Source: a virus. From it: a stretch of 38,523 bases of DNA. The stretch is taken from positions 1 to 38,523 of the IMG/VR virus record IMGVR_UViG_3300047552_000081. One strand, given 5' to 3'. Every line of letters starts with the position of its first letter. Positions within the stretch are counted from its first letter, which is position 1. Shown in pieces: positions 7,798-14,171 of the stretch. The notes beneath the pieces are model-generated. The model had not been told where the DNA came from, made no database searches, and was given only the letters and a program-made list of their open reading frames with translations. The position numbers were made by a program, and so were the translations under genes.

Positions 7798-8151
7798 TTA
7801 CTCCTTCACCAGCATTTCGCCGTTGTCTTTGAATCCAAGCCGACCAAGTATTCCATACATATACTCATGCCCGGTCGATACCTTGGTTGTGACTCGGGGG
7901 CCTTCAAATATCTTGCGCAAAAGTCCGGGGGTTGCCCACATTTTGCGCCATTTCGGCAAGACGGAAACGTGCACTTCGCAGTCCTTTTTGAAGAACGCCC
8001 CGATGCACTCGCCATCTCGCACAATCGCCTTGATTATCCAATCTTTCATCACTTCGCGGTAGGTGTCAAACGAAACATCTGCCGACCAGTCGGTGGCGAC
8101 ATAACCGACCCGCAGGGCCGCGTCGCGATCATCCACCAACTGAGTGGTCAT
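7798..8151 (-). CDS. GNAT-like small virion protein
   Basis: The 117-residue protein has the strand/helix rhythm of a reduced GNAT fold (WIIKAIVRDGECIGAFFKKDCEVHVSVLPKW, then KIFEGPRVTTKV and EYMYGILGRLGFK). Short GNAT-like proteins are found next to ejection-protein genes in T7-like and other podophages, including T7 gp13-type proteins. The acetyl-CoA loop (Q/RxxGxG/A) is not clear, so it may be structural rather than catalytic. Its start overlaps the previous stop by one base (TGATG). Confidence 0.55.
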   Translation of the reverse strand: MTTQLVDDRDAALRVGYVATDWSADVSFDTYREVMKDWIIKAIVRDGECIGAFFKKDCEVHVSVLPKWRKMWATPGLLRKIFEGPRVTTKVSTGHEYMYGILGRLGFKDNGEMLVKE

Positions 8152-8486
8152 CAGGTGACCTCACGACCGCTGGCGCGGATATTGATCGATGTGGCCGTTC
8201 CGGCAATCGTGCTGATGAACCCGCTGGCCGCCAACACATGACCGACCAGTTCGGGGAACGTGTAGGTCTCCGCCGGTTGCAGCGTCTTGGTCTTGGTGAT
8301 CAAGTTCTGGTTGCCTGCGGTGTCGGCACTGGTCACCAGATTCACGCTGATCGTGGCCGCCGCTGCCGAGTAGTTCGTGGCGGTGAACTTGTCAATGATC
8401 GTGGTGACACCTGTGGCGGTGTATTGGGATGTTTGAACCGCTTCAGCAATCTTGGCAGGGATTAACACTTTCACAGTAACTGTCAA
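8151..8486 (-). CDS. Small beta-rich structural protein, front end duplicated upstream
   Basis: The 111-residue protein is Thr/Ala-rich with alternating strands, typical of minor virion proteins. It must start at TTG 8486, seven bases after AAGGAG, because no ATG is in frame nearby. Its first 15 residues (MTVTVKVLIPAKIAE) are identical to the start of the HNH gene just upstream, but about ten of the fifteen codons differ synonymously. This suggests the gene was split by the endonuclease and its front rebuilt. Exact role in the particle is unknown. Confidence 0.75.
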   Translation of the reverse strand: MTVTVKVLIPAKIAEAVQTSQYTATGVTTIIDKFTATNYSAAAATISVNLVTSADTAGNQNLITKTKTLQPAETYTFPELVGHVLAASGFISTIAGTATSINIRASGREVT

Positions 8487-8497
8487 TTTAGTTCTCC

Positions 8498-8971
8498 TTA
8501 AACGTGTGCCCAGATTTGCATTTGAACGATTTGTCCAATCAAACTTTTGGACACTTGATATTTAATTGCAAGGTCTTTGTGTCCACACCCTCGCTGTCGA
8601 GGCTTGTAAATTGCTCGAATTTCTTTGACCATGCTTTCGGTCAATTTTGCATTTCCGTTGCGCGAACCTTTTGCGTCTCGATCACGAACATGACGATCCA
8701 TTGTATTGTCCGCGCTTGTACCTATTTCTAAATGCTCGGGGTTTAAACATTTGCGGTTGTCGCATTTATGGCGAACAACGACCCCGCGAATGTCAGCTAA
8801 TGTTTTATTATTAGCTTCACAATATGCAATCCGATGAGCTTTTAGCAATTTACCTTTAGAGTGAACTATTCCGTAGCCATCACGATTCTTAAACCCAGTC
8901 CACTCCCAGCATCCAGTCTGGTAGTTCTCGGCAATTTTGGCCGGAATCAACACCTTTACGGTGACTGTCAT
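8498..8971 (-). CDS. HNH homing endonuclease fused to captured gene start
   Basis: The 157-residue protein begins with the same 15 residues as the downstream structural gene. It then enters an HNH_3-type domain: GCWEWTG, a strand/His region (KAHRIAYCEA), and VVRHKCDNRKCLNPEHLEIG, holding the His and Cys pairs of the active-site zinc fold. A C-terminal helix-turn-helix (KDLAIKYQVSKSLIGQIV) ends with IWAHV, a usual end for this family. The start overlaps the upstream stop as ATGA, as expected for the original host-gene start. It probably cuts DNA lacking the insertion and spreads by repair. Confidence 0.85.
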   Translation of the reverse strand: MTVTVKVLIPAKIAENYQTGCWEWTGFKNRDGYGIVHSKGKLLKAHRIAYCEANNKTLADIRGVVVRHKCDNRKCLNPEHLEIGTSADNTMDRHVRDRDAKGSRNGNAKLTESMVKEIRAIYKPRQRGCGHKDLAIKYQVSKSLIGQIVQMQIWAHV

Positions 8972-9366
8972 TTCAGATCCTTTCTGTCCACTTTTCCGCT
9001 GATGGCGTGGAGCAATTCAATGTGGCGCTTGTAGCTGTCCTCACGGTGCGCTGCCATTACGTTGCTGAACTCTTTCCGGTCTTTTTCAGCGTTCTCAAAG
9101 AGTTTGACGATGTTGTCGTTCATGCGGTCACTTCTACGACGCTGCTCATCCTTCATGTCCCCAACCACGGTATCGACGTATTCCATGATCTTGTCGTTCA
9201 GGGTTGAATGTCCTGCATGAGTGGAGTCACTGAGCTTTTCGTGAGATTCGCGCAGGTCATCGTGTTCCTTCTGGTTGCGGTTCCATGCCCACGCTATGAG
9301 TCCGAGTGCTGGTGCCCATAGGAAGTCCTTGATGAAGTCCAGAATGTTGAATTCTTGCGGCGTCAT
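8968..9366 (-). CDS. Membrane-anchored coiled-coil protein, spanin-like layout
   Basis: The 132-residue protein has one N-terminal hydrophobic segment (about residues 16-29, LWAPALGLIAWAWN) followed by about 100 charged residues predicted as a long coiled coil. An inner-membrane anchor with a long helical tail is the layout of inner-membrane spanins and of some tail or ejection accessories. It lies far from the holin and endolysin, and no outer-membrane partner was found, so the spanin reading is only a suggestion. Confidence 0.6.
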   Translation of the reverse strand: MTPQEFNILDFIKDFLWAPALGLIAWAWNRNQKEHDDLRESHEKLSDSTHAGHSTLNDKIMEYVDTVVGDMKDEQRRRSDRMNDNIVKLFENAEKDRKEFSNVMAAHREDSYKRHIELLHAISGKVDRKDLK

Positions 9367-12182: not shown

Positions 12183-13620
12183 TGGTGCCGCTCACAATCA
12201 GTTCGGCACCCATGATGGCAATCTTCACGTTGTCGGTGCCCGAGACCTCGTACACGCGGTCGCGCAGCTTTTGGGTCATGCCCAGCCGACGCCAGAACAC
12301 CCGTTTGAAGTACTCGCCCGTGGCACCCATTGACGCCCAGTGCTCGTTGCTCCATGTGTGGCCGCCATCGTCCGACCAGCGCAGCATTACCTGTGCTTGA
12401 TCGGTGGACGCGCCGGAGCCAAACGCCGCACCAGTCTCACAGTCAAGTTGCAGACTGTGGTGCGCGGTGCGCTTGAGGTTGTTCTGCCCCGTTGGCAGCG
12501 CACGCCATGAGCGCAGCCACTTCTGAGGCGTGGTGTTGTCGATGTAGGTGTCGAGGTCAAGTTCGTAGATGTTCCCGTTTTCGAAGTCGCCTACGATGGT
12601 CACACCGCCAAAGTTGCATTGGCAGTTGGAACGGTGACGAGTGAACACGCCACCCTCAAATGCGGCCCGCTCGTGCCAGGCTTGCGTAGCCACATCGTAG
12701 ACCCATGTAGCGTTGGCGCTGGGGAAAGTCAGCACATAGAAGGCATGGCCTTCTTGCTGGTAGGTGTAGGCCAGCGCGTCCGAGATGTTGCCGTACTGCG
12801 CGATGGCGTACTCGATGGCGTGGGTGCTGATGCGCTGCCCCGTGTAGCCGTTGGCTCGGTACACGATGCCCTGACCACGGGCGTCAGTGCCCAGCCAGAA
12901 CAGGCCATTGTCCAGCTTGGCCAGCGAGTACGGTGCCACACAGCCGATCTCGTTGAAGGCACCCTGAATGCGCGTCAGGGGGAAGTCGGCCAGACCAGCG
13001 TCGTACCAGACCTCCACCGAGTCGGAGCCGAACAGCCACACCTCGCGGTGGTCAACGATCAGGGCCACCAGGTTGTCCGGTGCACCCTCGGCGCTGGCGA
13101 AGTCCAGCGGATCTACGCTGGTGCCGTCGAGCAGGCTTGTGACCCACACCCGCTGGCTGTTGGGCTCGTTGAATACGAAGTACCCGTCGAGATAGCTCAC
13201 AGTCACCGCGCCGGGGTAATCAGGGTCAGTGATCTGGGCGAACACGCCAGTCGATTCGTTGTAGATGAACCCATCGGGGTTGCAGGCAATGAACAACTGG
13301 GTGCCGTTATCGGCGATGCTGACCGGCCCGGTGCCCGTGATGTTGCCCAGCTTCACCGGCACCGAATCGGTGGCGGTCATCTGGTAGAACTCTGTGCCCG
13401 AGGCGACGTAGAAGTCGGTGCCGTTGGTCTGGTGCGCCCACAACCCACGGATGGGGCCGGTGCCTACGGTCTGGAGCAGACGTAGGCCTGGGGCGCGGTT
13501 CAGGAAGCCCGGCTCCTTGCCACCCTCGGGGATAGCTTCGGGGAACAGGTTGACCATGCGATTGTCGGCAGCATTGACGCTGCGGGCGACATAAGAACTG
13601 CCCAAAATGGGAGTTTTCAT
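12175..13620 (-). CDS. P22 gp10-like packaged-DNA stabilisation/tail hub protein
   Basis: The 481-residue protein opens SYVARSVNAADNRMVNLFPE, with GFLNRAPGLRLLQTVG after it, a pattern of phage stabilisation proteins (P22 gp10 type), followed by many short strand repeats as in a propeller-like hub. In P22, gp10 attaches under gp4 and plugs the tail after packaging. The gp4-like gene is immediately upstream apart from an inserted HNH gene, which supports the call. Start ATG 13620 follows TGGAGCG. Confidence 0.75.
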   Translation of the reverse strand: MKTPILGSSYVARSVNAADNRMVNLFPEAIPEGGKEPGFLNRAPGLRLLQTVGTGPIRGLWAHQTNGTDFYVASGTEFYQMTATDSVPVKLGNITGTGPVSIADNGTQLFIACNPDGFIYNESTGVFAQITDPDYPGAVTVSYLDGYFVFNEPNSQRVWVTSLLDGTSVDPLDFASAEGAPDNLVALIVDHREVWLFGSDSVEVWYDAGLADFPLTRIQGAFNEIGCVAPYSLAKLDNGLFWLGTDARGQGIVYRANGYTGQRISTHAIEYAIAQYGNISDALAYTYQQEGHAFYVLTFPSANATWVYDVATQAWHERAAFEGGVFTRHRSNCQCNFGGVTIVGDFENGNIYELDLDTYIDNTTPQKWLRSWRALPTGQNNLKRTAHHSLQLDCETGAAFGSGASTDQAQVMLRWSDDGGHTWSNEHWASMGATGEYFKRVFWRRLGMTQKLRDRVYEVSGTDNVKIAIMGAELIVSGTNA

Positions 13621-13661
13621 GCTTGCGCTCCAGTAATTCCGGTGTTAATATTCACGCTCAT
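13617..13661 (-). other. Possible 14-codon leader or gene remnant before gp10-like gene
   Basis: Minus-strand ATG 13661 opens a 14-residue frame (MSVNINTGITGAQA) whose TGA overlaps the gp10-like start as ATGA. This four-base overlap is the normal spacing between true genes here. The short frame lies just where the opposite-strand HNH gene begins. It could be a leader peptide, the end of a small gene broken by the HNH insertion, or chance. Confidence 0.25.
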
Positions 13662-13676
13662 TACCAAGGGGCGTAA

Positions 13677-14171
13677 ATGCACACCAAACTCACATGGCTC
13701 CACCTGCGAACGATTCTTGACTACAACCGAGAAACGGGCGTGTTTGTTTGGCGAGTTGACCGCAGCAAAGCGGTCAAAGCTGGCCACGTTGCTGGCTGCC
13801 TTGAAAAACGAATCGGGTACATCACGATTGGTATTGAAGGGAGCGTGTACAAAGCTCATAGACTCGCGTGGTTCCATGTTCACCAAGAATGGCCCAAGGG
13901 GTTGGTTGATCACATCAACGGCGACAAATCGGACAATCGGATTGTAAATCTTCGCGTAGTAGGCGCGGACGGCAATTCGCAGAACATCAGAAAACCAAAC
14001 CGCCGAAATAAATCTGGGTTTATGGGCGTCATCTGGTATCAGAACAAATGGCGAGCCAGTATGTCCGTCAATGGCAAATCCAAATGGCTTGGCGACTATG
14101 GTACGCCAGAAGAAGCGCATCAAGCCTATTTGGAAGCAAAGCGGAAATATCATGCTGCTTGCACCATTTAG
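13677..14171 (+). CDS. HNH-AP2 homing endonuclease, inserted against the late operon
   Basis: The 164-residue protein has an N-terminal HNH region (TGVFVWRVDRSKAVKAGHVAGCL... YKAHRLAWFHVHQEWPKGLVDHINGDKSDNRIVNLR), with DHINGDKSDN and NLR being the diagnostic HNH_3 elements. A C-terminal AP2-like DNA-binding domain follows (SGFMGVIWYQNKWRASMSVNGKSKWLGDYGTPEEAHQAY). This HNH-AP2 pairing is typical of free-standing phage homing endonucleases. It runs opposite to all its neighbours. Its stop is three bases from the gp4-like stop. Start ATG follows AAGGGG. Confidence 0.9.
   Translation: MHTKLTWLHLRTILDYNRETGVFVWRVDRSKAVKAGHVAGCLEKRIGYITIGIEGSVYKAHRLAWFHVHQEWPKGLVDHINGDKSDNRIVNLRVVGADGNSQNIRKPNRRNKSGFMGVIWYQNKWRASMSVNGKSKWLGDYGTPEEAHQAYLEAKRKYHAACTI

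Follow-up and report, generated by a model that had tools for sequence, protein, structure and literature searches.

How an HNH endonuclease gene and the structural gene behind it in a phage come to begin with the same residues, spelled largely in different codons, is the question raised by this locus. The window, meaning the whole stretch of viral DNA that was analysed, is 38,523 nucleotides long (IMG/VR record IMGVR_UViG_3300047552_000081, positions 1 to 38,523), and the features concerned are collected in Table 1. Residues 1-15 are identical in the HNH ORF and the 111-aa ORF (MTVTVKVLIPAKIAE, with TTG as the start codon of the latter) and QT is repeated at residues 18-19 in both, with NY at residues 16-17 of the HNH and AV at those of the 111-aa protein. 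Within codons 2-15, four are identical, ten differ synonymously and none differs nonsynonymously. The two fronts share 33/45 nucleotides and were not reported as a DNA repeat by a repeat finder. The upstream gene and the HNH ORF overlap by ATGA (8971-8968). The preliminary description of this DNA had already drawn attention to both ORFs, the shared front with QT two residues on, the roughly ten synonymous codons in fifteen, the ATGA overlap and the AAGGAG preceding the TTG, and all of these are confirmed here.

Table 1. Features of the HNH and 111-aa genes in the window
Feature	Position	Strand	Remark
Upstream gene, 132 aa, coiled-coil-like, function unknown	8968..9366	-	overlap of its TGA with the HNH ORF's ATG
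HNH ORF, whole	8971-8498	-	
Native front of the 111-aa gene, now HNH N-terminus	8915..8971	-	codons 1-10 minimum, 1-19 maximum
HNH endonuclease body (HNH_3 / phrog_6254) and C-terminal helix-turn-helix	8498..8914	-	
Shine-Dalgarno AAGGAG (8499-8494), overlapping the HNH stop codon, and spacer	8487..8499	-	
Recoded front of the 111-aa gene, TTG start	8424..8486	-	certain for codons 1-15, probable as far as about codon 21
Rest of the 111-aa virion-type protein gene, undisturbed	8151..8423	-	predicted jelly-roll
111-aa ORF, whole, behind the HNH ORF	8486-8151	-	

The first ORF of the pair is an HNH endonuclease: it matches the Pfam profile HNH_3 at 30.3 bits, above the curated cut-off of 24.8, and phrog_6254 at an E-value of 7.6e-29, and the catalytic and zinc residues H68, C70-D71-N72, C75, N77 and H80 are invariant in its alignment with relatives. 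Its closest cultured relatives, found in Acinetobacter phages, T7-like 13a (gp7.7) and phage tonijn, mostly start with a methionine within about three residues of window Cys21; the HNH of phage Aci07 starts slightly earlier, but with residues unrelated to the window front. Because the closest cultured relatives lack that front, the extra N-terminal residues of the window HNH are host-derived, an origin that protein comparison, the evidence available for it, establishes. Some environmental relatives, however, carry a native N-terminal leader (...KIAKNKESGCWEY), so that only residues 1-10 are unambiguously of host origin and the join can be placed only within codons 11-19. No other HNH with the same fused front, and no second copy of the window junction, was found in viral contigs. 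An endonuclease encoded by a group I or group II intron was rejected, since Rfam searches returned no intron match in the window region (E up to 1) or in five related loci (E up to 0.1) and the gene is complete without splicing.

The owner of the shared front is the 111-aa gene, since 163 relatives in this family have it as their conserved start. The gene is present as a single copy in 163/163 loci (two sets), and no HNH of the window type lies within 3-4 kb of it in these relatives. The finding that would have refuted the preliminary description, two full-length genes beginning with this segment in the absence of an HNH, is thus not seen among them. The uninterrupted gene that it predicted for relatives lacking the HNH is recovered as a conserved single gene start, but no near-identical empty allele of the window was found at the DNA level among relatives without the insert. 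The nine relatives of the upstream 132-aa gene yielded no empty allele either, each being followed by genes other than the 111-aa gene. The two tandem gene starts might suggest a tandem duplication of the 111-aa gene whose first copy was later destroyed by insertion of the HNH. This we find scarcely credible, since no relative carries tandem copies, the supposed first copy leaves nothing beyond its front, and the recurrences at unrelated genes described below always involve an HNH. In the predicted structure of the 111-aa protein (pLDDT 91), the front supplies the first strand, at residues 3-13, of a fold that is jelly-roll-like and weakly similar to virion proteins, and on this model the protein looks like a virion protein. 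In one relative (L004 3560-4126, MW202557.1) the 111-aa gene is unannotated, and an antisense ORF annotated over it bears the name contryphan-vn-tryptophan.

Codon composition bears on which of the two window copies is native. The HNH copy of the front has a GC3 of 0.64, like the neighbouring genes, while the downstream copy has a GC3 of 0.36, the same as that of the HNH body (0.36), against 0.80 in the body of its own gene. The front-minus-body difference of the window 111-aa gene falls below that of each of the 70 relatives examined; immediately beyond the join, codon 20 is a Ser codon (TCC) in the window and a Thr codon in 70/70 relatives. At the DNA level, the HNH copy matches its closest relative (L013) at 39/45 nucleotides; a search for the donor clade of the recoded front gave a best match of only 36/45 and was uninformative. 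Both N16 and A16 are natural alleles of the 111-aa gene (42/70 and 25/70 relatives, respectively). The downstream front thus appears compositionally foreign to its own gene and the HNH copy native, in line with the earlier proposal that the HNH copy retains the original start, which the GC3 of 0.64 and the match to L013 support. The ATGA overlap is the original coupling of the 111-aa gene's front with the upstream gene. We treat the compositional contrast as supportive only; it concerns just fourteen codons and was sought after the fact.

The synonymous divergence between the window fronts is itself not exceptional. Pairs of orthologues have a mean of 0.57, and 19% of pairs are at least as divergent as the two fronts, so the window alone is no proof of selection for recoding. 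Illegitimate recombination between two orthologous phages could have fused the front from one of them to the HNH passively, in frame, and left the intact gene from the other behind it, the codon differences (10/14 synonymous) being unselected divergence, and the start contexts of both ORFs look natural, TTG with AAGGAG also occurring in relatives L036/L037. This passive join is nonetheless unlikely in our judgement: the recoded front of the window is HNH-like in codon composition, and in the terS alleles described below one recoded front accompanies the HNH into recipient alleles that differ, its recoding stops sharply four codons beyond the junction, and the flanks are otherwise identical DNA.

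Similar arrangements recur next to other HNH genes. In an anchored scan of 237 distinct HNH ORFs, we set each HNH start against that of the following gene and each HNH end against that of the preceding gene, using as null 55,932 shuffled HNH/neighbour pairs, for which the maximum scores were 33 for starts and 28 for ends. The window scores 55, which places its front similarity outside chance; other start-anchored scores are 36 for L382 and 32-33 for L180/L182, and the end-anchored score of L188 is 45. An offset-tolerant version of the scan adds L175. In L382 (Stenotrophomonas pictorum), the HNH begins MNCFNAVGRVGKE and is followed by an SSB gene beginning MNNCNFIGRVGKD, probably representing the same captured-front arrangement at ssb; the ssb front had no match in phages, and a flank search across 198 genomes of the family of Stenotrophomonas pictorum found no clear empty ssb allele. 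The mirrored case is found in two separate metagenome records (L188 and L410), in which a tail-type gene ends KRLSNQELEKLTS, the next HNH ends KRLPNAELEKLTS and the HNH overlaps the following gene by ATGA; no empty allele of this tail gene was found by DNA match in phages, and its protein relatives are only distant. In L180-L182, the HNH begins MAKLTDKQELF; the terS behind it, which again starts at a TTG and has a ribosome-binding site of its own, begins LKQLTPKQELF. The cases are few, a handful among the 237 HNH ORFs sampled; HNH relatives are present in 1,648 phage records. Weak candidate end matches in L399, L369, L130 and L364 score close to the shuffled null and we do not count them as captures, L090 was set aside for an internal helix-turn-helix-like repeat, and L116/L117 were set aside as probable HNH paralogues. 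The weak HNH/neighbour similarities (end or start) of L369, L130 and L399 might be decayed captures.

This variety also bears on whether the front was retained for the benefit of the HNH, as a coupled translation start or as a peptide for association with the virion. The ATGA coupling is kept in the window, the residues of the front are unchanged and the 111-aa protein is virion-like, all of which such a benefit could explain. The captured ends, however, differ between elements (terS, ssb and a tail protein) and one of them is C-terminal, so no common peptide function is apparent, and residues 1-4 are predicted to be disordered in the window HNH. We consider retention for the benefit of the HNH very improbable, and note that use of the start codon and ribosome-binding site is compatible with the explanation that we prefer, invasion by a mobile element.

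The terS gene provides the empty, occupied and decayed alleles that the window lacks. In Pantoea phage PA-1, terS is uninterrupted and its first 12 codons match the front of the terS-element HNH at 35/36 nucleotides; the terS behind the HNH differs from that of PA-1 through codon 16, agreement returning from codon 17. The comparison is sharper between E. coli S163-2 (empty) and 2013C-4991 (occupied), which are identical at 59/60 nucleotides upstream. Codons 1-12 of S163-2 terS match the HNH front of 2013C-4991 at 36/36 nucleotides, while the recoded copy of codons 1-16 is only 29/48 identical; codons 17-34 (54/54) and 35-100 (198/198) are again the same, 252 nucleotides in all. Over the compared stretch, the two alleles differ by the HNH, the recoded codons 1-16, one upstream base and nothing else. 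The recoding extends four codons beyond the join, codons 13-16 being altered synonymously. The terS element is thus a presence/absence polymorphism with identical flanks, as is required of a homing element.

Further alleles indicate what moves and what stays. In L175, the recoded terS front is the same at 49/51 nucleotides although the HNH body is only 71-73% identical, and the stranded front, MALTDKQEMF, is found also on other intact terS genes. A constant recoded front behind different recipient fronts implies that the element brings the recoded front, and that the stranded one is the recipient's own. From the aligned alleles, then, the mobile unit consists of the HNH, a ribosome-binding site and the recoded front, inserted in frame, with the recipient's own front becoming the N-terminus of the nuclease. 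The recoded front, which arrives with the element, may possibly stem from a divergent homologue, because a few amino-acid changes are also present. Early entry into the gene, fusion to its start and a recoded downstream start, as first proposed for the window, are accordingly borne out in near-identical terS alleles, and the window has the same anatomy; the accompanying proposal that the host gene was rebuilt in place does not hold for terS, where the recoded front is constant across recipients and comes with the element.

Among 5,426 E. coli genomes, 21 carry the recoded terS front, with an annotated HNH under the match in 14 of the 21. In EJN001 (L531 1474-1550), only 59 nucleotides of the HNH are left, directly behind a lysis gene, and the recoded terS is intact; judged from its sequence alone, this relic documents the loss step of a putative homing cycle, the HNH being gone and the recoded front kept. 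Six further listed genomes have the recoded terS front with no HNH annotated. The occupied anatomy is present in finished E. coli chromosomes, and this bears on whether two related phages could have been joined in the window as an assembly chimera. The window comes from a single environmental record of a virus, and no second copy of its junction was found. A chimera can nevertheless practically be discounted, as the junction keeps the reading frame, the signals on either side of it are intact and the same anatomy occurs in those finished chromosomes and, for the 3'-end case, in two metagenome records. We also observe that the recoded terS fronts (L175 3497-3547, L180-L182 and L534) are 96-100% identical with HNH genes at 71-84%, a conservation of nucleotides as if the sequence itself were selected or recently exchanged. 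Separately, the terS genes of L181, L182, L498, L533 and L535, intact and occupied, stay near-identical as far as about codon 34-50, beyond which they diverge abruptly, forming a mosaic boundary near the homing site.

Taken with the terS alleles, the window is in our view very probably explained by a mobile HNH homing element that invaded a gene start and comprises 8971-8498 with the recoded front to about 8424. That this element works like the terS element is inferred by analogy, the case for the window resting on its architecture, its composition and the terS parallel. In the mechanism we propose, the HNH would cut the uninterrupted gene near codons 12-20, both the cleavage and its position being inferences. 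Repair would then copy in the HNH body, its stop, the ribosome-binding site and the recoded first 16-21 codons. The recipient's first codons would stay with the upstream neighbour and become the in-frame N-terminus of the nuclease, and the structural gene would be expressed in full from its recoded start. The insertion puts a gene front next to the remainder of the gene once more; left unchanged, that front would be recut and would form a direct repeat. The recoding may block recutting of the recreated site, and may prevent loss of the element through direct-repeat recombination with the stranded front. Escape from cutting is likely the reason for the recoding, although this resistance is inferred in the absence of cleavage data. 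More broadly, we lean, with reservations, towards a family of phage HNH elements with a natural cut-and-rescue design, in which a recoded 5' (or 3') gene end is heritable cargo that the element's own nuclease cannot cut and the nuclease is fused to the recipient's original end, allowing important genes to be invaded without an intron or intein.

Among known arrangements, that of the mobile ORFs of fungal mitochondria comes closest; the preliminary description had cited such ORFs in atp6 as analogous. These ORFs sit in atp6, atp9, cox2 and nad3 (Allomyces, Glomus), where the endonuclease brings in a foreign 3' gene end with mostly synonymous differences and strands the native end (PMC3630166). 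The likeness lies in the divergent replacement end, the stranded native end and the phase of some of these ORFs with the host gene. The fungal ORFs replace the 3' end and encode LAGLIDADG or GIY-YIG enzymes, whereas the window has the 5' end of a phage gene and an HNH; L188 is a 3' version that differs from them in its HNH. Defined by a divergent duplicate end and a stranded native end, the class of gene-end-replacing mobile ORFs includes both terS and the window, and the window is the 5'-end phage counterpart of the fungal elements. Strict membership among the latter (mitochondrial 3' end, LAGLIDADG or GIY-YIG) is not met.

Within phages, a homing endonuclease gene also lies inside an essential gene, without intron or intein, in the case of MobE and the nrdA of Aeh1. 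That nrdA reportedly remains split in two pieces, whereas the window gene is whole again through its duplicated front. MobE is an example of genes in pieces (Friedrich et al. 2007, as cited in PMC2988022). The HNH hidden in the methylase gene of phage ShiLan is likewise inserted without intron or intein and leaves the gene readable, but the methylase gene is read across the insert, and in the window the gene end is resupplied in recoded form (PMC11855218). Free-standing phage homing endonucleases, such as T4 seg/mob (PMC2988022), Skunavirus HNH (PMC12724721) and the ICP1 HEGs (PMC10448857), resemble the window HNH in being free HNH genes beside conserved genes, present or absent among relatives; in the parts of these sources available, their positions are intergenic or within introns or inteins, with no captured recoded end found. 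In keeping with the preliminary description, which knew of no named phage example, the open-access literature, incompletely covered, yielded no phage homing endonuclease with a captured or recoded gene end.

The usual view is that coding sequence is open to homing endonucleases only by way of introns, inteins or intergenic insertion. Natural recoded rescue would be a further route into coding sequence, by mobile elements able to rewrite virion and packaging genes at their ends. Synthetic Cleave-and-Rescue drives also link a nuclease to a recoded, uncuttable copy of its target, but as engineered systems, of which the window element would be a natural counterpart (PMC7951863). As phages of cultivable bacteria hold empty, occupied and decayed alleles, the full homing cycle and the cost of recoding are directly testable.

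The window also holds a second HNH, with an AP2 domain (13677-14171, plus strand), encoded on the other strand from the structural genes, where it overlaps a probably spurious 178-aa ORF (13617-14153, minus strand). Relatives of this second HNH occur in many phage contigs, two of which also carry the 111-aa gene (L435/L007 and L483/L008).
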